Below, piece after piece: positions 52,376 to 64,000 of a stretch of DNA of 64,000 nucleotides. The position numbers and the translations under genes were made by a program. The stretch is from Gammaproteobacteria bacterium. Lineage in GTDB: Bacteria; Pseudomonadota; Gammaproteobacteria; Ga0077536. The stretch is from positions 1 to 64,000 of the forward strand of contig JACPPA010000036.1 in the NCBI GenBank assembly GCA_016191285.1, read 5' to 3'. The notes under the pieces were generated by a model. That model worked only from the letters and a program-made list of their open reading frames with translations. It had not been told where the DNA came from and made no database searches. Position 1 is the first letter of the stretch. Each line of letters opens with the position of its first letter.

Positions 52376-53575
52376 TTACTCGGCGCGAAGCGCCTCGACG
52401 GGGTCGAGGCGCGCCGCGCGCACCGCCGGCGCGAGGCCGGCGGTAATGCCGATCACAACGGCAAAACCCAACGCTGCGCCGGCGTACGGCCAGGCCACTT
52501 GGACCGGGATCGTGGGCGCAATGGTGCGAAGTAATGTCACTGCGCCGACCGCCAACACGACTCCTGCCGCGCCGCCGATCGCGCCAAGTGCGGCCGCCTC
52601 AAGCAGGAAGCAGCGCAAAATGTCGCCGTGGGTAGCGCCCAACGCGCGCAGCAAGCCCACTTCGCCAACGCGCTCGGTCAACGCAATGGTCATGATCGTC
52701 GCGATTCCCACCGCGCCGACCACGAGCGATATTCCGCCCAGGGCGGCGACGCCGGCCGTCAGTACCGTCAAAATTGAACCCATGACTTCGAGCATTTTGT
52801 CTTGCGCCGTTAACGAGAAATCTTCCTGCCCATGCCGTGCGATCAATAGCCGTTTGATCTCCGCCGACACATGAGCGGAACTTAAGCCCGGACGGTACAG
52901 CACATCGATTTCATGTACTCCATTGCGATTGAAGAGCGCTGCCGCCTTGCTTACCGGCACGTAGAGCGTGTCGTCCAAATCGAAGCCCAGGAATTGGCCC
53001 TTGGGCTGCATGACCCCGGCCACGCGAAAGCTATCTTCGCCAACCCGGATCCGCGCACCCAGCGGATTGGCACGGCCGAACAACTCGGTGTAGAGCTTGG
53101 CGCCCAGCACCGCGAAGGCTTGCGCGTTGTCGTAATCCTGATTCGGCAGAAAGCGACCGATGGCGAGCGTCATCCGGAACGTGCGCGGCAGCGCCGCCGA
53201 GACCCCAAAAATCATCGTGCGCCGCTTGCGATCGCCAAATTTTACTTGGGCGTTACCCTGAATGACGGGGACGATGCCATCGAGCGAACTCAACCGGCTC
53301 AAGGCACGGGCATCGTCGATCGACAGCGGACGGTTAGTCGAGATTTGACCGACCGAGCCGCCGAGCGTGCTCGCTTTACCGGGTTGAATCGCGATCAGAT
53401 TGGTGCCGAATTGGGTAAACTCGCCCACCACAAATTGTCGCAGGCCTTCACCCAAGGCCGTTAACAAGACCACGGTCGCGATGCCAACGGCAATGCCCAA
53501 AATCGTTAACAGCGAACGTTGACGATGCGCGCGCACCGCGCCGATTGAAAACTTAATCAAGTCCGGCACGCGCAT
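52376..53575 (-). CDS. MacB/FtsX-type ABC transporter permease (second)
   Basis: A 399-residue permease: one N-terminal helix (SLLTILGIAVGIATVVLLTAL), a periplasmic MacB-like core domain, and three C-terminal helices (GGISLVVGAVGIATIMTIAL; AALGAIGGAAGVVLAVGAV; GAALGFAVVIGITAGLAPAVRA), with the FtsX marker ERVGEVGLLRALGATHGDI. It is a paralogue of the upstream gene (2-base gap). No ATP-binding subunit or membrane-fusion protein lies in the window, so the ATPase must be encoded elsewhere. Confidence 0.87.
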   Translation of the reverse strand: MRVPDLIKFSIGAVRAHRQRSLLTILGIAVGIATVVLLTALGEGLRQFVVGEFTQFGTNLIAIQPGKASTLGGSVGQISTNRPLSIDDARALSRLSSLDGIVPVIQGNAQVKFGDRKRRTMIFGVSAALPRTFRMTLAIGRFLPNQDYDNAQAFAVLGAKLYTELFGRANPLGARIRVGEDSFRVAGVMQPKGQFLGFDLDDTLYVPVSKAAALFNRNGVHEIDVLYRPGLSSAHVSAEIKRLLIARHGQEDFSLTAQDKMLEVMGSILTVLTAGVAALGGISLVVGAVGIATIMTIALTERVGEVGLLRALGATHGDILRCFLLEAAALGAIGGAAGVVLAVGAVTLLRTIAPTIPVQVAWPYAGAALGFAVVIGITAGLAPAVRAARLDPVEALRAE

Positions 53576-53577
53576 CG

Positions 53578-54801
53578 TTAGTGTCCGCGCGCGGACAGCG
53601 CTTGTACGGGATCAAGCTGACTGGCGCGGCGCGCCGGGCCGACGCCGAAAATAATCCCGCAGCCGAGCGAAATGGTGAGCGCGCCAAGCGCGCCCCACCA
53701 CGGCACCGCCGCCGGAAAACTGGGGTAGAGCAAGCGCAGTATCAGCGCGCCGCTCATGCCAAGCAAGGTACCGAACGCCGCACCGGCCACCGTCAGCAAC
53801 AGGGCTTCGAGTAAAAACAACGTACGGATGTCGCGCGCGGTCGCGCCCAAGGCTTTGAGCAGTCCAATCTCGGACCGGCGCTGCGCGATCGCGACCAACA
53901 TCACATTCATGACCAGGATGCCGGCGACCAGCAAGCTAATGCCCGACACGGCGGCGACCGCGAGCGTGATCGTGCGCAGAATGCGATCGAAGGTCGCGAC
54001 CACACTGTCCTGCGTGACGATGGTGACATCATCCTCGCCTTCGTGCCGCGTTTTGATCACGCGACGGACGGCATTCGCGGCGCGTTCGATGCCGTGCGAG
54101 TCGTGGGTTTCAACGAGGATGCGAAAGAGGCCTTCGGTATTGAACAGGGCTTGGGCGGCGGCGACCGGGAGCAGCACAAGGTCATTGAAATCATTGCCGA
54201 GCGACACCCCGGTATTGTCCAGGATGCCGACTACCCGGCAACGCCGATCGCCGATCCTAAGCCAGGTGCCGAGGGCCGATTGATTAGCATAGAGTTCGTG
54301 GGCAAGGGTCGGACCGAGCACGCAACTCGCATCGACACGTGCGGTGTCCGCGGCCGTCAGGAAGCGGCCGGTCGCCACCACCAGATGCCGCACCTCAAGC
54401 ATCGCGGCCGACACGCCCAAGATCGTGGCCTCGCGTTCCTTGCCGCTCGTCACCGACACATTGGCGCTGCCGACGACGATCGGCACCACGCGCTGCACGT
54501 CGGGTAAGCGCAATAACGCGGCGGCGTCGCTTAACCGTAATTCGCGCGGCGTTTCGCCCATTACCGGCGGTAGGCCGCCGACGGTTTCATTGCGGCCCGG
54601 CAAGACTACCAGAAGGTTGGTCCCGAGCGCGCTGAATTCACCGACCACATACTGGCGTGCGCCATCTCCCAACGCGGTCAACAGCATCACGGCGGCGACG
54701 CCAATCGTCGTCGCCAAGCCAATCAGCAACGAACGCATGCCCTGGGCGCGCAACGAACCCACGGCGAGCGCCAGCGTATCGTGCAATTGCAACATGGCCA
54801 C
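53578..54801 (-). CDS. MacB/FtsX-type ABC transporter permease (first)
   Basis: A 407-residue permease with the same four-helix plan (SLLIGLATTIGVAAVMLLTAL; VAAVSGISLLVAGILVMNVM; VAGAAFGTLLGMSGALILRL; LTISLGCGIIFGVGPARRA) and the marker RRSEIGLLKALGATARDI. Its periplasmic domain has NDFNDLVLLPVAAAQALF typical of MacB-like proteins. Divergent from the phosphohistidine cluster across only about 90 bases, so shared regulation is possible. Substrate unknown. Confidence 0.87.
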   Translation of the reverse strand: MAMLQLHDTLALAVGSLRAQGMRSLLIGLATTIGVAAVMLLTALGDGARQYVVGEFSALGTNLLVVLPGRNETVGGLPPVMGETPRELRLSDAAALLRLPDVQRVVPIVVGSANVSVTSGKEREATILGVSAAMLEVRHLVVATGRFLTAADTARVDASCVLGPTLAHELYANQSALGTWLRIGDRRCRVVGILDNTGVSLGNDFNDLVLLPVAAAQALFNTEGLFRILVETHDSHGIERAANAVRRVIKTRHEGEDDVTIVTQDSVVATFDRILRTITLAVAAVSGISLLVAGILVMNVMLVAIAQRRSEIGLLKALGATARDIRTLFLLEALLLTVAGAAFGTLLGMSGALILRLLYPSFPAAVPWWGALGALTISLGCGIIFGVGPARRASQLDPVQALSARGH

Positions 54802-54890: not shown

Positions 54891-55640
54891 ATGGCAAAAC
54901 TCTATGGTGACACCGACAAGTTCGGTGAGCAGAATTCCACGCCCGTGGTGGAAGCCTTTCATACCGCGGTGAGAGATCTGGTACGCCGGAAATTCGTTGA
55001 GTCCGGACAATCATGGTCCGAATTTGTATTCGGCGCGGCCCAGCAAGTCATCACGCAATCCGAGTTCGCGGCGATCGATGCACGCTTGCTCGACTATGGA
55101 CATCGCTATGTGTGGTCCGCCGTGGTCTCACAAGAAGAACGCCCGGAAGCCTATCTCCCGGGTCAGACCGCCGGCGAGGATTTGAGCAATTTCAGTTTTG
55201 AACATCCCGATGCGATCACGGCCCTGCCGGACGCGCAAGGACTCGAGTTGCGTGGCGTCGGCGACAACGTGGTCAAGTACGCAACGGATTTGATCGGCAC
55301 CGCGCGCTATGTGCGATCGAGCGCAACGGTGCTGGCGTATCTCAATAGCGGTGTGCCACCAGGAACCATCGCCGTGATCGACGATTCAGGCGGCACCCTG
55401 ACCGCACCCATCCTCGAACAGTTCACTGGCGTGCTCTGCGCTGGCGGCACGGTGCGGTCTCACTTGGGGATATTGACGCGCGAATACGGCATCCCGTGTT
55501 TTATGAATGCGAGAATATCGGGCCTTAAAGAAGGCGATACCGTGCGCCTGGAAACGACAGCCGTGGCCAAAACCGCCGAGGCGTATCAAAAAGGCGTGGA
55601 GATGACGGGTCGCGTGTGGCGGGTGAATAAGCCAGCATGA
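54891..55640 (+). CDS. Stand-alone phosphohistidine (PEP-utilizer swivelling) domain protein
   Basis: 249 residues. The C-terminal half is the mobile His domain of PEP synthase/PPDK: SGVPPGTIAVIDDSGG, then GVLCAGGTVRSHLGILTREY with GIPCF. The likely phospho-accepting His191 is kept, but there is one extra residue before it compared with GGxTSH. The N-terminal ~110 residues match nothing I know. No ATP-grasp or PEP barrel is attached, so it must receive or donate phosphate by partnering. ATG at 54891 follows GAGAG; the frame to 54657 overlaps the divergent permease gene. Its stop overlaps the next gene (ATGA). First gene of the unusual cluster. Confidence 0.85.
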   Translation: MAKLYGDTDKFGEQNSTPVVEAFHTAVRDLVRRKFVESGQSWSEFVFGAAQQVITQSEFAAIDARLLDYGHRYVWSAVVSQEERPEAYLPGQTAGEDLSNFSFEHPDAITALPDAQGLELRGVGDNVVKYATDLIGTARYVRSSATVLAYLNSGVPPGTIAVIDDSGGTLTAPILEQFTGVLCAGGTVRSHLGILTREYGIPCFMNARISGLKEGDTVRLETTAVAKTAEAYQKGVEMTGRVWRVNKPA

Positions 55641-57184
55641 ACCTTACCTACGCACAATTGCTCGAAACCAATAATCTCATTCAGCAGAACACCGACGAGA
55701 CGTATTGGCTGTGTCTGACGCGCACCGTGCAAGAGTCAAAACTTTTTCCCGTATCGCCGTACATGATTTTGTCGTACTTCATGGCGTTTTATCGCTATCC
55801 CACCTTGCTGCGTAAGATCGAAACGCACATGCGGGCCGAGGAAATCGGCGATCGCGTGCGCAGTCGCGGTATCAAATGTCAGAATCCCGCCATGGGTTGG
55901 GGATTGCCGAATTTTTATCTGCTCGGACGTCAATATCTGATCTCGATGGGGCTTATCCGGCCGCAAGACGCGGTTGACGACATCATCTATGTGCTCGATT
56001 TCTGGAAGCGCTTTCAACTGGCCTGGCACCGCAACGATGCGCATATGACCAATCGCGAATTCGGGCATCGGGCGCAAATTCTGCCCGAGCGCCGCTTGCA
56101 AATCTTTCACGCGGATATGTATGACTGCGCCGAAGGCGACCCGCTGCACACCGCGGCGCAGGCCTTCATGGCGGCGACCTCGCAGTATGGGTTTCTGGTG
56201 TCCTGCGAGAGTCGAATCGCCTTGCATAACCAAGGACCGTACAAGCTCGATGACGAGCGCGAAATGATCGTGCGCGATTTCATGGATCTCGCCGAAGGCG
56301 ACTATCCGTGGCTCGATGGCGTGGCGGCCGACGTGCCCTACAACAACCTGACCGTGCCGATGGCGGTCAAGGGCTGTCACTTCAATATCATCGACGACTG
56401 GGGCTCGTTCGAGTCGCAACCCGAATTCAAATCGCATCACATGGTCGGCGTCGGACTTTATACCTCGGATTGTCTGTCTGACACTTACCTGCCCGTGGGT
56501 ATGGAGAGTCGCGAGGAGCTGACGCATACCTTCGAAATGCTGACCCAGAAAGCCAAGGACGCCACCGGCCGCCTGTGGAAACGGATCGCGGGCTGGACCC
56601 GCGATCAAATGATCGACGCGGGCGCCATCGTCTACTTCAGTATCTGCAAGGACATCGCGCACGTCGCGGGTTGCTATGACAGTGCGGATTGGATGCTCAT
56701 CGATGAGCGCGCCGAGCGTTTTCGGCCGTTGCTCAATGACGAATACGGCAACCTGTCGTTATACGAGATCCTGGGACCGCTATCTCATCCGGCACAGCGC
56801 GGACACGACTATCAATTGGCGCAGCACGCGAATATTCCGGCGAATACTTATTCGCTGATCCCGTATTCGATTTTGGACGATGCCGATTACACGCGAACCT
56901 GCGGCGAGCTCAAGCCTGGAATTACTTATCTTGAACCCAAACAAGATCGCTATCGCACGACGCAGGGTGTGTTGTCGCTCGCCGAGTACAACCGGCGGGT
57001 TAAAGCCTTCACACCCTCCTTGTGTGGCGAAAAATATCGCTATAAATGCGAGAGCTGGCTTAAATACCATCACGACACGCCGCTCGCCGACGAGATGTAT
57101 CGAATCGAACAGGTCGCCTCGCGGCGGCTCAAAGATTGCGGCGCCGGATTGAAACGCGCGGATATTGAAAAACTCCGCGATTGA
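55637..57184 (+). CDS. Unassigned 515-residue protein coupled to the phosphohistidine protein
   Basis: I do not recognise the family. It is soluble, with no signal peptide or membrane helix. It is rich in Tyr, His, Asp and Trp, with several motif-like stretches: SRGIKCQNPAMGWGLPNFYL, KGCHFNIIDDWGSFESQPEF, KSHHMVGVGLYTSDCLSDTY and GVLSLAEYNRRVKAF. Translational coupling (4-base overlap) to the His-domain protein suggests a stoichiometric complex. By analogy with rifampin phosphotransferase and phenylphosphate synthase, whose substrate-binding part partners a His domain, it may bind the phosphoryl acceptor. That is inference. A real gene by length, start and operon position. Confidence 0.85.
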   Translation: MNLTYAQLLETNNLIQQNTDETYWLCLTRTVQESKLFPVSPYMILSYFMAFYRYPTLLRKIETHMRAEEIGDRVRSRGIKCQNPAMGWGLPNFYLLGRQYLISMGLIRPQDAVDDIIYVLDFWKRFQLAWHRNDAHMTNREFGHRAQILPERRLQIFHADMYDCAEGDPLHTAAQAFMAATSQYGFLVSCESRIALHNQGPYKLDDEREMIVRDFMDLAEGDYPWLDGVAADVPYNNLTVPMAVKGCHFNIIDDWGSFESQPEFKSHHMVGVGLYTSDCLSDTYLPVGMESREELTHTFEMLTQKAKDATGRLWKRIAGWTRDQMIDAGAIVYFSICKDIAHVAGCYDSADWMLIDERAERFRPLLNDEYGNLSLYEILGPLSHPAQRGHDYQLAQHANIPANTYSLIPYSILDDADYTRTCGELKPGITYLEPKQDRYRTTQGVLSLAEYNRRVKAFTPSLCGEKYRYKCESWLKYHHDTPLADEMYRIEQVASRRLKDCGAGLKRADIEKLRD

Positions 57185-57225: not shown

Positions 57226-58692
57226 ATGCAAATCGGACAACTCATCCGTCGCGCCGCCCAATACTTTAGTGATGCCGCGTGTCTGATCGAAGGCCCGCGC
57301 CAGATCAGCTTCAAGGAATTCGATGCCGCGACCGATCGCCTGGGCAACGCCTTGCTGGCCCACGGCCTGCAGCCCGGCGAGCGCGTCGGCGTGCTGCTTT
57401 CGAACAGTATCGAATGCCTGATCGCCTACTACGCGGTGGCCAAGGCCGGGTTGGTGCGCGTTGGGCTCAACACGCGCGAGACCGTCGATAATCATCAATA
57501 CAAGATCACCGACGCTGGTTGTCGTGCGGTAATCCACGCCGGTGTGGCTGGCATCGACGCCGAAATGTTAATTGGCCCGGATCGATTACTGACCATGATC
57601 GCGACCGGCCGCGCCGCGCCGTGTGCGATCGATCGCGCACTCGATGCGCCGTATCGCTTGGGCTATACCGGTGGCACCACGGGCAAAGCGAAAGCTGTTA
57701 CGTTAACCACGCGCGGCGAGCTGGCGGAACTGGCGGCGTTTTTGCTCGATTTGATTCCAAACATTCGCGCCGGCGACACGTTCCTGCACGCGGCGCCGAT
57801 CGCGCACGCCTCGGGCGCGTTTTTCTTGCCGGCGCTGGCGCGCGGCGCCACCTCGCTCATCATGCCGAAATTCGATCCGGCGGAATTTATCCGGCTGGCC
57901 GAAGCCACCCAGGCGAGCATGACCTTCCTGGTGCCGACGATGCTCGCGATGATTTTGGAAGAGCCTGTGCTGGCGCGCGCGAAGCTCGCGTTTAATACCA
58001 TCAGCTACGGCGCCTCACCCATTGCCCCGGCGGTGCTCGAGCGCGCGCAGGCGCGGTTTGGCCCAGTGTTCGCGCAAACCTATGGGCAGGCCGAAAGTCC
58101 GATGGTGATCACCTGTTTGAAACCGCATGAACAATCGCGCATTGGATCGTGCGGCCGGCCGTTTACGTTTGTCGACGTGGCGGTGTTGGACGATCAAGAC
58201 CAGCCGTTGCCGCCAGGTGAAATCGGCGAAATTTGTTGCCGCGGTCCCCAGACGATGGCGTATTACTGGAATCGACCCGCGGCCACCGAACAGGCCTTCC
58301 GCAACGGTTGGTTACACACCGGCGATATCGGTCGCATGGATGAGGCAGGGTACTTCTATATTCTCGATCGCAAAAACGACATGTTGATCTCCGGCGGTTA
58401 CAACGTCTATCCGCGCGAAGTCGAAGAGGTGCTTCTCGAAGTCGAAGGCGTGATCGAAGCGGCAGTGATTGGTATCGCGGATGAAAAATGGGGCGATCGC
58501 GTGCATGCGGTGGTCGCCGGCCGCGCCGATCTCGATCCTGAACTCATTCTGGCGCATGCGCGCTCGCGGCTCGCCAATTACAAACGGCCTAAGGCCATCG
58601 AGATCTGGCCCGAATTGCCGAAAAGCGCGGCGAATAAAATTCTCCGGCGTGAAATTCGCGATCGCATTGTGGCGCGCGGGAAACGTGAATAG
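57226..58692 (+). CDS. AMP-forming acyl-CoA ligase of the cluster
   Basis: A 488-residue ANL-family ligase. ATP-binding loop is variant: LGYTGGTTGKAKAVTLTTRG (usual SGTTGxPKG has become GGTTGKAKA). Other motifs are normal: TYGQAESPMVITCL, GWLHTGDIGRMDEAGYFYIL, ISGGYNVYPREVEEVLLEVE. The catalytic-lysine motif reads LPKSAANKILRREIR (Asn where Gly is usual). It should activate an acid, perhaps the product of the nearby carboxylase. The gap to the preceding gene is 41 bases. Confidence 0.88.
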   Translation: MQIGQLIRRAAQYFSDAACLIEGPRQISFKEFDAATDRLGNALLAHGLQPGERVGVLLSNSIECLIAYYAVAKAGLVRVGLNTRETVDNHQYKITDAGCRAVIHAGVAGIDAEMLIGPDRLLTMIATGRAAPCAIDRALDAPYRLGYTGGTTGKAKAVTLTTRGELAELAAFLLDLIPNIRAGDTFLHAAPIAHASGAFFLPALARGATSLIMPKFDPAEFIRLAEATQASMTFLVPTMLAMILEEPVLARAKLAFNTISYGASPIAPAVLERAQARFGPVFAQTYGQAESPMVITCLKPHEQSRIGSCGRPFTFVDVAVLDDQDQPLPPGEIGEICCRGPQTMAYYWNRPAATEQAFRNGWLHTGDIGRMDEAGYFYILDRKNDMLISGGYNVYPREVEEVLLEVEGVIEAAVIGIADEKWGDRVHAVVAGRADLDPELILAHARSRLANYKRPKAIEIWPELPKSAANKILRREIRDRIVARGKRE

Positions 58693-58886: not shown

Positions 58887-59492
58887 ATGATGAATGAAAT
58901 GCATCTGGCCCTGCATGGGCTAGCGATCAAAAAACATGCGGGACCGGCCGCCGTCGCGGCCACCGTGGGCTTAAGCGAAACGCGGGTTGCCGAATTACTG
59001 CAGCAGGCCGTGACCACCGGTCGTGCGAGCGAAGCACAAGGGGCGTATCTGCTGTCGCCAGCGGGACGCCTGATTATCGAGAGCCTGTATTCCAAGCTGT
59101 TCGATCGCGAGCGCCAAGACGGCGCGTTGGCCGGGGCTTACGAAAAATTCGAACGCATCAACACCGAACTGAAACAACTGATTACCGATTGGCAGACCCT
59201 CGACGTCGGGGGCCAAAAAGTTCGCAACGATCATTCCAACAAAGATTATGATGCGCGGGTCTTGGACCGTCTTGGCGCCTTGCACGAGCGATTCACGCCG
59301 GTACTGGCGCAGCTCTGTCGCGGCGTGCCACGCCTCGACCTTTATCGGGAAAAGCTCGATCACGCGCTGGACCGCGCGGAAGCCGGGCAGGTGCAATGGG
59401 TAAGCGATGCGAAAATCGACAGTTTCCACACCGTATGGTTTGAAATGCATGAGGATTTATTGCGCATTTTGGGCCTTCAACGCGAGGAGTAG
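58887..59492 (+). CDS. 201-residue protein with a possible winged-helix N-terminus
   Basis: The N-terminal ~65 residues look like a winged helix-turn-helix (AAVAATVGLSETRVAELLQQ, then AYLLSPAGRLIIESLYSKLF). The rest is helical and charged (YEKFERINTELKQLITDWQT; DRLGALHERFTPVLAQLCRG). No family is assigned. ATG at 58887 follows GGAGACG; the longer frame from 58731 only translates the REP repeat. It lies 32 bases before the PPDK-like gene, so it is either a regulator of the cluster or a small subunit of the dikinase complex. Confidence 0.75.
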   Translation: MMNEMHLALHGLAIKKHAGPAAVAATVGLSETRVAELLQQAVTTGRASEAQGAYLLSPAGRLIIESLYSKLFDRERQDGALAGAYEKFERINTELKQLITDWQTLDVGGQKVRNDHSNKDYDARVLDRLGALHERFTPVLAQLCRGVPRLDLYREKLDHALDRAEAGQVQWVSDAKIDSFHTVWFEMHEDLLRILGLQREE

Positions 59493-59524: not shown

Positions 59525-61267
59525 ATGGCAATTGAATTAGGCGCGTGGACCCTCGCCCTTAACGGCGCGAGCCTGCCCGAAAAATCCTTAATCGGCGGCA
59601 AGGCGTGGTCGATCGCGCGCCTTCGGGCATTCGATCTTCCGGTGCCGCCGGCCTTTGTTATCACCGTCAAAGCGTGTAATGCCTACCTACGCGATGGTGT
59701 AATCCCCGCGACGCTCGACGCCGAAATTCGCGCAGGCATGGCGTGGATCGAAGCACAGGCGGCGCGCCAATTTGGCGGCAGTGCCAAACCCCTGCTGGTC
59801 TCGGTGCGCTCGGGCGCGATGATCTCGATGCCCGGCATGATGGATACCGTGCTCAATCTTGGCATTAATAACGCGACCGCGGCCGCCTTGGCCGCGGAAG
59901 CCGCCGATCCCGAATTCGCGCGCGACACGCACCGGCGTTTTCTCGATCTGTACGCGCGAATCGTATTGCGCGCGACGCTGCCGGAATTAGCTTCCACGGC
60001 AGCGATTGACGATTGGCAGCGCGCGATTTTCGAAGCCACGGATCAGCGCGTGCCTGAAGATCCGTATGCGCAGTTGTGGGGCGCCATCCACGCCGTGTTC
60101 GAATCGTGGAATTCGCGCCGCGCGCGGCGTTACCGCGAGCATCACGGTATCGCGCATGATTTGGGCACTGCGGTGACGGTCCAGGCCATGGTGTTCGGTA
60201 ATCTCGACGATCGATCAGGCACCGGCGTGCTGTTCAGCCGGAATCCACTGACCGGCGATCCCGCGCCCTACGGCGAATACCTGGCGCGTGCGCAGGGCGA
60301 AGACGTGGTGTCCGGCCGCTTTACGCCGCAACCGTTGGCCGCGTTGGCCTCGGCGATGCCCGACCTCCATGCCCAACTGTTGGCCGCCGCCGTGACCTTG
60401 GAACGCGAGAACGGCGACGTGCAGGATATTGAATTCACGATCCAACATGCCGAGCTCTATCTATTGCAAACGCGCGCAGCCAAACGCGCACCCGCGGCGG
60501 CCGTGCGCTTTGCCTGCGACATGGTGCACGAAGGCCGTATCGATCGGGCCACTGCGTTGTCGCGGCTCAGCGCCGAACAAGTGCGCGTGCTCTTAAGCCC
60601 GCGTCTGGCGTCTGGCGTGACGGCGCGTGCGGTCGCGCAGGGCGAAGCGGCCTGCCAAGGCGTCGGTGTTGGCGTGGTGGTGATGAGCAGCGATGAGGCC
60701 GAGCGTCGCGCGCAGGCCGGTGAAGCAGTGGTGTTGGCGCGTGAGACAACGAGTCCGGATGATGTGCACGGCATGCTCGTGGCGCGCGCGGTGATTACCG
60801 AGCAGGGTGGCGCGACCTCGCACGCGGCGGTCGTGAGCCGTGCGCTCGGCGTGCCGTGCGTGGTGGGTTGCGGGGTCGGTAGTTTGGCGGCGCTTACGGG
60901 GACAATGGTCACCGTCGATGGCGCGAGCGGCCAGATTTACGCTGGTAATCTGCCGGTGCTGGCGCCCAACGAGCGCGATGATCCCGCGCTCTGCGAACTC
61001 TTGCGATGGGCCGAGCGCGTGTGTCCGATCACGGTCCTCGACGAGACCGCGCCGGTGGCCGAAGTCTACGATCTCGATGTCGTTAAAGGCGGTGAAGACG
61101 CGACGCAGTTGGCGACCTTGCTCGCTGGCCGCAAAATTGCCAAGGGCGGCGCGATTACCAGCGATGAGGGTGTGAGAGCGGCGCTGCAAGCTGGCGTGAC
61201 CACTATCGTCGCACGGCATCGCTTGCCGGTGATGCTGGCCGCCATCGCGGCGACGCGTGGCGACTGA
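59525..61267 (+). CDS. PPDK-like dikinase lacking the PEP/pyruvate barrel
   Basis: 580 residues against about 870-900 for pyruvate phosphate dikinase. The ATP-grasp part is very PPDK-like: LIGGKAWSIARLRAFDLPVP, SVRSGAMISMPGMMDTVLN (about 93-111), VQAMVFGNLDDRSGTGVLFS, DIEFTIQHAELYLLQTR. The swivelling domain has TSPDDVHGMLVARAVITEQG and GGATSHAAVVSRALGVPCVV with phospho-His433. After DGASGQIYAGNLPV the protein has only about 110 residues instead of the TIM barrel that binds PEP/pyruvate. It can plausibly make phosphohistidine from ATP, but must hand it to another acceptor. Confidence 0.9.
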   Translation: MAIELGAWTLALNGASLPEKSLIGGKAWSIARLRAFDLPVPPAFVITVKACNAYLRDGVIPATLDAEIRAGMAWIEAQAARQFGGSAKPLLVSVRSGAMISMPGMMDTVLNLGINNATAAALAAEAADPEFARDTHRRFLDLYARIVLRATLPELASTAAIDDWQRAIFEATDQRVPEDPYAQLWGAIHAVFESWNSRRARRYREHHGIAHDLGTAVTVQAMVFGNLDDRSGTGVLFSRNPLTGDPAPYGEYLARAQGEDVVSGRFTPQPLAALASAMPDLHAQLLAAAVTLERENGDVQDIEFTIQHAELYLLQTRAAKRAPAAAVRFACDMVHEGRIDRATALSRLSAEQVRVLLSPRLASGVTARAVAQGEAACQGVGVGVVVMSSDEAERRAQAGEAVVLARETTSPDDVHGMLVARAVITEQGGATSHAAVVSRALGVPCVVGCGVGSLAALTGTMVTVDGASGQIYAGNLPVLAPNERDDPALCELLRWAERVCPITVLDETAPVAEVYDLDVVKGGEDATQLATLLAGRKIAKGGAITSDEGVRAALQAGVTTIVARHRLPVMLAAIAATRGD

Positions 61268-61327: not shown

Positions 61328-61837
61328 ATGGCGAATGCAGACATCCCCAAAGTAAGCGCCGAGGACATCGAGAGCCTCATCGAACTCTTTAAGCAGTCGG
61401 GCTGGGATGAAATGCATCTTAAGACTGCAGATCTTGAACTGTTCCTCTCCAATGATCCGAATGCAACGGGTCCGCGTCAGACACCGGCAATCGCTGTGGC
61501 GGGACCCGCGGTCGCTGGTTCAGCCGCCATGCCGACCACCGCCGCGGCGCCGGCGAGTGCGGCGACGATTGGCCATGCAGCGGCCATTCCGGACGGCACG
61601 GTTGCGATCCGCGCGCCCAACCTCGGCACTTTTTATCGCGCACCCAAGCCCGGCGCGCCTCCCTATGTCGAATTGGGTCAGCAGATCGAAATCACCACTG
61701 AGGTGGGTCTGATCGAAGTCATGAAACTGTTCACGCCGGTGCAGGGAAGCGTGCGCGGCGTGGTCCGGGAGATCCGTGCCAAGGATGGGCAAATGGTTGA
61801 GTTCGATGAGCCGTTGATCATCGTCGAACCGAACTAG
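61328..61837 (+). CDS. Biotin carboxyl carrier protein (AccB-like)
   Basis: 169 residues. N-terminal AccB-like segment (SAEDIESLIELFKQSGWDEM), Ala/Pro-rich mobile linker (about 50-90), C-terminal biotinyl domain from AIRAPNLGTFYRAPKPG. The biotinylation motif is EVMKLF with Lys133 (usual EAMKM), 36 residues from the end as expected. It carries carboxybiotin between the biotin carboxylase (next gene, 5-base gap) and the carboxyltransferase. A housekeeping accBC pair would normally be elsewhere with the acetyl-CoA CT genes; here the partner is different. Confidence 0.92.
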   Translation: MANADIPKVSAEDIESLIELFKQSGWDEMHLKTADLELFLSNDPNATGPRQTPAIAVAGPAVAGSAAMPTTAAAPASAATIGHAAAIPDGTVAIRAPNLGTFYRAPKPGAPPYVELGQQIEITTEVGLIEVMKLFTPVQGSVRGVVREIRAKDGQMVEFDEPLIIVEPN

Positions 61838-61842
61838 CGTTA

Positions 61843-63210
61843 ATGCCAATCTCGCGCGTCTTAAGCGTTAACCGCGGCGAAATTGCCGCGCGCGTGGTGC
61901 GTGCCGCGCAGGCGCTCGGGATCGAAGCCGTGCAAGCGGTGTCCGCCGCCGATCGCGACAGTACCGCGGCACGGCTCGCCGATCGCACCGTGGTGATCGG
62001 GCCCGCGGCTTCGCGCCTCAGTTATCTCGATGCGCCGTTGCTGGTGCATGCCGCCAAAGCCACTGGCTGCGATGCGCTTCATCCCGGCTATGGCTTTCTG
62101 TCCGAACGTGAACATTTGGCGCGCCTCTGCGGCGAACACGGCATTACGTTTGTTGGCCCGGCGCCCGAGACCATCGCGGCGTTGGGCGACAAGCTACAAG
62201 CGAAGGCGATTGCGCAAGCCGCGGGTGTTCCGTTGGTGCCAGGGACGGCAAAAATCGCGGATGCCGCGGCCGCGAAGGCGGCGGCGGAAGCACTTGGATT
62301 TCCGGTGTTGTTGAAGGCTTCGGCTGGCGGCGGAGGCCGCGGCATGTTCATTGCCCGGCGTGCCGAAGAGATCGAAGCTTCGTTCGATAAATCCTCGAAT
62401 GAAGCGCTGGAAGCCTTTGGCGACGGCACCATGTACATGGAGCGCTTCGTCGAAAACGCGCGCCATGTCGAAGTCCAGGTGTTCGGCGACGGCAGCGGCA
62501 AAGTGCTGCATTTTGGCGAGCGCGATTGTTCGATCCAGCGGCGCTACCAAAAAGTGTTTGAAGAAGCGCCATGCGCGGCGATGCCGGCCAAGCTGCGGAA
62601 ACTTCTGCACGACTCAGCGGTCGCCTTGGTGGCGTCGCTCAAGTATCGCAATGCCGGCACCGTGGAATTTCTATATGACGTCGATCGCGCGGCGATTTAT
62701 TTCATCGAAGTTAACGCGCGCATCCAGGTCGAACATCCGGTGTCCGAGCAGGTCACCGGCTATGATCTGGTGCAACTGCAGTTTCGGATCGCCGGTGGCG
62801 AGCCCCTGCGCTGGTCGCAAGCGCAGGTGCCGGTACAGGGACACGCGATCGAGTGCCGCATCAATGCCGAAGATCCGACGCGGAATTTTCAACCGAGCCC
62901 GGGACGGATCACGCGCTGGGCACCGCCACACGGCGCCGGGATTCGTCTCGACAGCCATTGTTATGACGGCTATCTGGTGCCGCCGTTCTACGATTCGATG
63001 ATCGGCAAGCTGATTGTCACGGCGGCGACACGCGCCGATTGCGTCACCCGTTTGCAAGCGGCGCTCGCCGCTTTCACAATCGAGGGCCTGATCACCAATC
63101 TACCGCTGCTTAAATTTATCGCGGCGCATCCGGATTTTGCCGCCAATCGATTAAACACTCGCTGGCTCGAGCAGACCTTGCTGCCGGGTTTTGAAGCTTC
63201 GCAGGAGTAA
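61843..63210 (+). CDS. Biotin carboxylase (AccC-like)
   Basis: A 455-residue ATP-grasp enzyme making carboxybiotin from ATP and bicarbonate. Motifs: SVNRGEIAARVVRAAQALGI, HPGYGFLSE, the glycine loop KASAGGGGRGMFIA, FGERDCSIQRRYQKVFEEAP and FIEVNARIQVEHPVSEQVTG (usual NxRxQVEHxVTE; catalytic Glu/Asn/Arg kept). All expected catalytic residues are present, so it looks active. Seven bases separate it from the carboxyltransferase-like gene. Confidence 0.94.
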   Translation: MPISRVLSVNRGEIAARVVRAAQALGIEAVQAVSAADRDSTAARLADRTVVIGPAASRLSYLDAPLLVHAAKATGCDALHPGYGFLSEREHLARLCGEHGITFVGPAPETIAALGDKLQAKAIAQAAGVPLVPGTAKIADAAAAKAAAEALGFPVLLKASAGGGGRGMFIARRAEEIEASFDKSSNEALEAFGDGTMYMERFVENARHVEVQVFGDGSGKVLHFGERDCSIQRRYQKVFEEAPCAAMPAKLRKLLHDSAVALVASLKYRNAGTVEFLYDVDRAAIYFIEVNARIQVEHPVSEQVTGYDLVQLQFRIAGGEPLRWSQAQVPVQGHAIECRINAEDPTRNFQPSPGRITRWAPPHGAGIRLDSHCYDGYLVPPFYDSMIGKLIVTAATRADCVTRLQAALAAFTIEGLITNLPLLKFIAAHPDFAANRLNTRWLEQTLLPGFEASQE

Positions 63211-63217
63211 GGTTCCG

Positions 63218-64000
63218 ATGGCCCATATTGAATTTCTCGACGAGACCATGCGCGACGGCCAGCAAAGCCTGTGGGGCATGCGCATGCAAGCCGGCATGGC
63301 GTTACCCGTGGCGTCGTTGATCGATCGCACCGGCTTTCGGGTGATCGACCTCACGGGTTCGTCGATGTTCGAAGTGCTAATCAAGTACTGTCAAGAGAAT
63401 CCGTGGCAAGGCCTTGACCTCTTAACCCAGGCCATGCCGCGGACCAAAATTCGTGGTGGCATGCGCTCCAATGCGTCGGTGACCTTTAGCGTCACGCCGG
63501 ATGCGTTGATGGATGCGTGGATGCGGCAACTGAATGTGCACGGTTGCCGCAGTTTTTGGATCTACGACGTGCTGTTCAATATCGACAAGATGCATCGCCT
63601 GGCCAAAGTCGCGAAGGAGTTTGGTTCGGAAGTCGCCGGCGCGATCATGTTCACCTTGAGCCCGGTGCATTCCGATGCCTACTATGCCGACAAAGCGGAC
63701 AAGCTTTCGGCGTGCAAGGATATCGATACCTTGCTGCTGTACGACACCGCTGGCGTGCTCGAAAAAGAACGCATGCAGACCTTGATCCCGGCGCTCATCG
63801 CCAACGCGCGCGGCAAGCCCATTGAATTCCATTCCAACAATCTACTGGGCCAGTCCGCCAAAGCGTATCTAGATGCGGTGGAACTTGGTGTACGCATTTT
63901 GCACACGGCGAGTCGGCCGATGGCGAACGGCCCGTCGGTGCCGTCGACCGAAATCATGGTGCGTAATATTGAATTGCTCGGGCACACGCATTCGCTCGAC
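63218..64000 (+). CDS. Atypical HMGL/pyruvate-carboxylase-like carboxyltransferase (3' partial)
   Basis: The first 261 residues are visible; the frame is open at the window end. The fold matches the carboxyltransferase of pyruvate carboxylase/oxaloacetate decarboxylase: FLDETMRDGQQSLWGMRMQA, with metal Asp13 kept, TKIRGGMRSN, FWIYDVLFNIDKMHRLA, TLSPVHSDAYYADKADKL. The strongly aligned IKDMAGL, whose Lys is carbamylated and binds metal, reads LYDTAGV (Tyr175). The HxH metal pair reads EFHSNN (His205, Asn207). So the active site differs from known members and the substrate is likely not pyruvate. RBS AGGAGTAAGG overlaps the end of the biotin carboxylase gene. Confidence 0.85.
   Translation, partial: MAHIEFLDETMRDGQQSLWGMRMQAGMALPVASLIDRTGFRVIDLTGSSMFEVLIKYCQENPWQGLDLLTQAMPRTKIRGGMRSNASVTFSVTPDALMDAWMRQLNVHGCRSFWIYDVLFNIDKMHRLAKVAKEFGSEVAGAIMFTLSPVHSDAYYADKADKLSACKDIDTLLLYDTAGVLEKERMQTLIPALIANARGKPIEFHSNNLLGQSAKAYLDAVELGVRILHTASRPMANGPSVPSTEIMVRNIELLGHTHSLD

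Follow-up and report, generated by a model that had tools for sequence, protein, structure and literature searches.

The window, that is, the whole stretch of 64,000 nucleotides that was analysed (contig JACPPA010000036.1 of the Gammaproteobacteria assembly GCA_016191285.1), ends within an operon whose genes lie in the order swivel, P515, CoA ligase, x202, PPDK (pyruvate, phosphate dikinase), BCCP (biotin carboxyl carrier protein), biotin carboxylase, carboxyltransferase, thiolase and SDR. Those inside the window are all on the + strand, and the thiolase and SDR genes follow the carboxyltransferase beyond its end. P515, at positions 55637–57184, encodes a protein of 515 residues without a known family, which is proposed below to be the acceptor-substrate subunit of a kinase. 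The swivel gene directly before it (54891–55640) runs from an ATG at 54891 to a TGA at 55638–55640 and its product, of 249 residues, is divided into an N-terminal region of unknown fold and a PEP-utilizers mobile domain with a catalytic-type histidine, His191. This domain scores 28.2 bits against PF00391 (cut-off 23.1), in agreement with the preliminary description of the upstream product as a His-domain protein, and His191 is invariant in 30/30 aligned rows, including HpeH-type and PPDK swivels.

Downstream of P515 lies an AMP-binding acyl-CoA ligase of 488 residues (57226–58692; PF00501, E 3.3e-72), followed by x202 (58887–59492), a protein of 201 residues that is a proposed kinase subunit on the basis of its alignment, model and fusions. 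The model (pLDDT 94.4) places a MarR-like winged helix at residues 1–72, followed by a helical part; as such winged helices are common, this one tells little about function. The polar residues H116, H181 and H188 are among those that are invariant in x202, and a search of its profile against the PDB returned nothing useful (best E 0.053). The next gene encodes a short PPDK of 580 residues (59525–61267), the proposed ATP-side donor, which comprises an ATP-grasp domain (PF01326) and a swivel of its own (PF00391) with His433, present in 30/30 rows. It scores 707 bits against NF004531, for which the curated cut-off is 456, and so belongs to that family. A three-part, biotin-dependent carboxylase completes this side of the window: BCCP (61328–61837; PF00364, E 8.1e-13), biotin carboxylase (61843–63210; PF02786, PF02785, PF00289) and a pyruvate-carboxylase-type carboxyltransferase (63218–64000), which is cut by the window end and reaches contig position 64678 (PF02436, E 7.6e-24 on L060:2219–3679). 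The latter shares 36% identity with a carboxyltransferase encoded on the Sphingomonas bisphenolicum plasmid pBAR1, beside a HAD hydrolase, and about 28–31% with oxaloacetate decarboxylase subunits.

On the other side, at 52376–54801 on the - strand, two permease-like genes, presumably FtsX, face away from the operon and adjoin it in several near relatives as well. No phosphatase was recognised in the window operon and no Y_phosphatase3 gene lies near it. A SurE-type gene is found about 14 kb from P515 (L060:10378–11166), and in three lineages (this one, L043:7105–7923 and L053:4230–4997) the operon has a SurE-like gene, possibly encoding a phosphatase, at a distance of up to about 15 kb, the first being called with Pfam and the other two by the appearance of their N-termini.

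The P515 reading frame is a real gene whose protein is under strong selection. Its coordinates, strand and length, as first described, are borne out by the DNA and its translation. Relatives at 33 loci are 47–87% identical and, when P515 is compared to that of L024, differences by codon position are 62/39/248, with dN 0.10 and dS 1.9. Across five such comparisons (L024, L025, L027, L030 and L033), third positions vary most, dN is 0.10–0.15 and dS 1.5–2.7, corresponding to a dN/dS of about 0.04–0.09. The reported ATGA overlap is also present, with bases 55637–55640 common to the end of the swivel gene (CCA GCA TGA) and the start of P515 (ATG AAC CTT). The term "translationally fused" does not apply, because swivel and P515 are two separate proteins in the window, made from genes that overlap by ATGA. 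This overlap is limited to near relatives; elsewhere the spacing between the swivel match and the P515 match is mostly 6–72 bases.

P515 could not be placed in a family by the preliminary description, and profile searches gave the same outcome: nothing in Pfam, NCBIfam or PHROGs reaches E ≤ 1 with the protein. To represent the family, 29 full-length relatives out of 61 listed rows were aligned (A1), leaving out same-contig duplicates, partial rows, a fused paralogue of 729 residues, three far rows and some near relatives. Searches of PDB sequences produced zero matches at E ≤ 10, either with the protein or with the A1 profile, and a Pfam scan of the 29 members gave scattered, weak matches only (best E 0.033). 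An AlphaFold2 model built from A1 is confident (pLDDT 85.5, pTM 0.88). For this model, all 28 PDB matches from Foldseek have E above 0.001 (best 1.2), and VIA-align gave Z ≥ 2 for 3 of 415 chains (best 2.6). Rifampin phosphotransferase (RPH), PEP synthase and PPDK are absent among the rows for the whole-chain model, an absence that does not exclude them, and the lack of a convincing PDB fold match does not prove that the predicted fold is new.

The substrate domains of RPH and PpsA-type enzymes had been suggested as the proper comparison for P515, and no sequence-profile relation was found. In hhalign, the probability is 0.4% for A1 against an HpeH/RPH profile (A3) and 0.1% against the HpeH-type protein alone. 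An HpeH-type protein from the same genome (L079:7640–9361), serving as a control, matches RPH in the PDB at 1.3e-24. On these sequence comparisons, P515 is rejected as a recognisable RPH/HpeH-type substrate domain.

Two conserved-looking stretches were initially put forward as candidates for an active site. The first, KGCHFNIIDDWGSFESQPEF, holds up as conserved, with D253, D254, W255, S257, F258 and P262 invariant in 29/29 A1 rows. The second is ruled out as a whole, as four of its residues are missing in several paralogues. When A1 is extended to 39 rows by one R. pyridinivorans orthologue and nine far relatives, twelve residues are kept in every row: Y42, G97, R98, F186, R193, G200, P201, Y202, R213, W225, P262 and Y333, three of which are arginines.

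The same genome carries a second copy of P515 on contig C50 (64% identical). Matches were found in 29 of 96 genomes sampled from the genus to the class of the host, its own included, and all 29 belong to the same family; in a phylum-wide scan of 398 genomes, the only match was in the window's own genome. The 33 loci came from a scan of GTDB genomes and, by their record titles, belong to Gamma- and Alphaproteobacteria and Actinomycetota. The title "Klebsiella pneumoniae", which is probably wrong, is borne by three MAG contigs (L023, L029, L032) that carry the operon at 80–87% identity, like that of uncultured Gammaproteobacteria. Among plasmids, 9 of 72,556 records contain a match. Nothing was found on the gene set or its locus tags among open-licence PMC papers.

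Neighbours were counted at those of the 33 loci with enough flank. The swivel gene is directly upstream of P515 at 32/32 usable loci, and nearby are x202 (25/26), the short PPDK (24/25), biotin carboxylase (19/20), carboxyltransferase (18/19), CoA ligase (23/26), thiolase (12/18) and a Y_phosphatase3-type gene (6/20). Two Rhodococcus plasmids show the window gene order in their own annotation, followed by a thiolase and a "tyrosine-protein phosphatase". Paralogous clusters (L018–L022, L056, L061–L064) are arranged as phosphatase, swivel, P515 and x202, then carboxyltransferase and/or SDR; the core of swivel, P515 and x202 is retained where the adjacent pathway genes vary. Minimal swivel proteins of about 140–150 residues lack the N-terminal region and still have a P515-like neighbour. 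In Pseudonocardia and two Rhodococcus plasmids, three swivel/P515-type units follow one another, namely a separate pair, a fused unit and one of the window type (L047:1174–10527; L083:8311–16572; and L084:8905–16572, the last from annotation alone). Methylibium petroleiphilum PM1, which grows on MTBE and tert-butanol, has a far relative of P515 on a plasmid, about 5 kb before methylmalonyl-CoA-mutase-like genes. Here, the P515-like gene, a swivel gene of 149 codons and an x202-like "MarR" gene (L087:11890–14779) stand just before genes for a B12-dependent mutase.

The case for swivel, P515 and x202 forming one enzyme is built chiefly on natural fusions. Swivel and a P515-like region form one chain at L047:2939–4570 and L083:10149–11882, P515 and x202 do so at L056:9845–12034, and all three are joined in Rhodococcus opacus B4 (L086:11320–13701). 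The P515 profile matches the three swivel-bearing chains at E 4e-27 to 7e-46 and the P515-like proteins near small swivel genes (L057, L058, L059 and L087) at 6e-19 to 3e-36. In Rhodococcus sp. LW-XY12, x202 forms the C-terminus of an AMP-binding protein (L103:7369–9540). The label of MarR regulator, which x202 bears in some records, was rejected as a full account of it, given its fusion into the enzyme at L056 and L086 and into the AMP-binding protein at L103.

Evidence on the side of the enzyme to which P515 belongs came from plasmids, 23 records of which contain x202. Five new ones were viewed for module exchange. In all five, x202 (at L103 in its form fused to the AMP-binding protein) directly adjoins an annotated pyruvate, phosphate dikinase gene. 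In four, a nearby PEP-utilizing protein matches the HpeH/RPH profile at E 1e-39 to 2e-43 over both the substrate region and a C-terminal swivel, with no match to P515; in the fifth, from Streptomyces atratus, no PEP-utilizing gene is annotated within the fetched stretch. Since the pair of PPDK and x202 adjoins either an RPH-type acceptor or swivel plus P515, P515 is taken to be the acceptor side. It occupies the place of the RPH/HpeH substrate domain with no detectable sequence relation to that domain.

HpeHI is one of the closest known systems. In PMC12167813, the ATP-grasp part phosphorylates the histidine of a swivel, which then moves to the acceptor domain, and HpeH alone transfers phosphate between substrates. 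The Hpe pathway, as outlined in PMC9618137, consists of a kinase, a three-part biotin carboxylase, a phosphatase, a CoA ligase and cleavage. A split phospho-His dikinase with a swivel histidine as carrier, as in Hpe and Acv, is predicted for the window operon, which also shares with them an AMP-forming CoA ligase and a biotin carboxylase in three parts. The carboxylase is recognised from Pfam domains on BCCP, biotin carboxylase and carboxyltransferase. The kinases differ. There is no HpeHI-type kinase within the window operon, which has swivel, P515, x202 and PPDK instead. As described in the same texts, HpeH joins an RPH-type substrate domain and a C-terminal swivel in a single protein, whereas swivel and acceptor are separate in the P515 system; HpeI is a PEP-synthase-like ATP-grasp protein with no swivel, whereas the donor here is a PPDK that has one. 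The acceptor is unrelated by sequence and x202 is additional. Relatives of the operon have Y_phosphatase3-type genes nearby; in the operon itself, none was recognised. Elsewhere in the same genome, a kinase pair of the HpeHI/PpsAB type (L079:7640–10416, contig C40) is located among genes resembling an aromatic meta-cleavage pathway.

PMC12167813 and PMC9618137 describe phenylphosphate synthase (PpsAB) and 4-cresol kinase (CreHI) as HpeHI homologues; both are multi-component dikinases that open aromatic catabolism, and both are set apart in that P515 shows no relation to the HpeH-type profile. MarK, which also opens a pathway, that of acetovanillone catabolism, is a single-component kinase as described in PMC13101465, and differs in this respect. 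RPH (PDB 5FBS, 5HV1) likewise has an ATP-grasp domain, a swivel histidine and a separate acceptor domain, all in a single chain, and neither sequence nor fold searches matched P515 to it. The family to which the donor belongs (NF004531/PRK05878) has a name that implies pyruvate, whereas the window donor belongs to a catabolic operon in which swivel and acceptor are encoded as subunits of their own. With a phosphorylatable histidine in the swivel and an ATP-grasp donor encoded alongside, the P515 system is most likely of the PEP-utilising/small-molecule dikinase type, with predicted ATP-dependent phosphorylation via phospho-His.

The favoured reading, with a probability of roughly 0.62, makes P515 the subunit for the acceptor substrate in a small-molecule dikinase of several parts. 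The preliminary description, in which P515 binds the substrate for a split phosphotransferase, is retained as the best reading, through fusions, operon conservation and module exchange, features that are read from sequence; homology lends it no support. The enzyme would have more parts than that description assumed, with the PPDK-like donor at 59525–61267 and the winged-helix subunit at 58887–59492 added. Several points count against the reading: searches revealed neither sequence homology of P515 to any acceptor domain nor a fold match, the PPDK already has its own swivel so that the second is unexplained, the window operon has no Y_phosphatase3 gene in its vicinity, and the C-terminal ~130 residues of P515 are missing in far relatives.

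It is also conceivable, if unlikely, that the dikinase uses P515 as a scaffold or regulatory subunit and that the substrate is held elsewhere, such as on x202 or the N-terminal region of the swivel. Fusions prove association and not the identity of the part that binds substrate, and x202, with its invariant histidines, is conserved as widely as P515 at these loci. Yet x202 stays with the PPDK even beside an RPH-type acceptor, which makes it look like a donor-side protein, and it is P515 that switches when the acceptor switches. As for the swivel, minimal versions devoid of the N-terminal region keep their P515-like neighbour. Less probable still is a very distant homology between P515 and the RPH/HpeH substrate domain, with P515 diverged past detection and doing the same job. 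The position beside the swivel and the donor pair are identical, and Foldseek may have missed a fold match, P515 having been modelled as a whole chain; against this stand the hhalign probability of 0.4% and the lack of a PDB profile match where the control finds RPH, as well as the domain order, the swivel being N-terminal in P515 fusions and C-terminal in HpeH/RPH types. The least probable proposal, that P515 is an independent pathway enzyme merely co-transcribed with the swivel gene, draws on its lack of a recognisable domain or assigned reaction and on far relatives that are separate genes, and it fits poorly with an invariably upstream swivel gene, three kinds of fusion to swivel or x202, and a core that is kept while adjacent pathway genes differ.

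For P515 as acceptor subunit, we infer all steps of catalysis, the path that the phosphate takes, what the winged-helix protein does and the class of substrate. PPDK, His191 and P515 are assigned to the ATP side, the carrier and the acceptor side, respectively, because of the analogy with HpeHI. The short PPDK would take phosphate from ATP. The phosphate would then pass to His191, either by a visit of the swivel to the ATP-grasp domain or, possibly, by relay from His433 of the PPDK. The loaded swivel would dock on P515, which would hold a small molecule as phosphate acceptor, and a candidate site comprises the invariant R98, R193 and R213 together with the signature FL..(E/D)xR...GPY...R. As a predicted part of the complex, x202 may hold the donor and acceptor halves together.

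The operon looks like a breakdown pathway for a ketone-like compound, and its CoA ligase, three-part PYC-type biotin carboxylase, thiolase and SDR echo the Hpe (acetovanillone) pathway. The phosphorylated product would probably be a ketone with a hydroxyl, or one trapped as its enol. Carboxylation by the biotin carboxylase, dephosphorylation, conversion to a beta-ketoacyl-CoA by the CoA ligase and cleavage by the thiolase may follow. The thiolase and SDR suggest that a secondary alcohol is oxidised to a ketone, which would be carboxylated, activated and thiolysed. A more ambitious version, held tentatively and with the odds somewhat against it as a whole, would make P515 the founder of a new class of acceptor domain in phospho-His dikinases. 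Its fold would be an unrecorded one, and it would serve a phosphorelay of four parts, two swivels among them, that opens a route not described before. In this route, a hydroxy-ketone or ketone enol would be phosphorylated, carboxylated by a pyruvate-carboxylase-type enzyme, freed of its phosphate and thiolysed, and donor and acceptor modules would be exchanged between pathways like cassettes.

Most likely, the P515 system is a new multi-part variant of the phospho-His small-molecule dikinases in which P515 is the acceptor subunit. If so, the scaffold used by PPDK, PEP synthase, rifampin phosphotransferase and phenylphosphate synthase would take an entirely different acceptor subunit, and one donor pair would serve both kinds of acceptor. 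It would also help with the annotation of genes that at present go by "hypothetical protein", "MarR regulator" or "pyruvate, phosphate dikinase" on plasmids of Rhodococcus, Mycobacterium, Diaphorobacter and Methylibium and in proteobacterial genomes, and would point to a route of ketone carboxylation whose substrate is directly testable.
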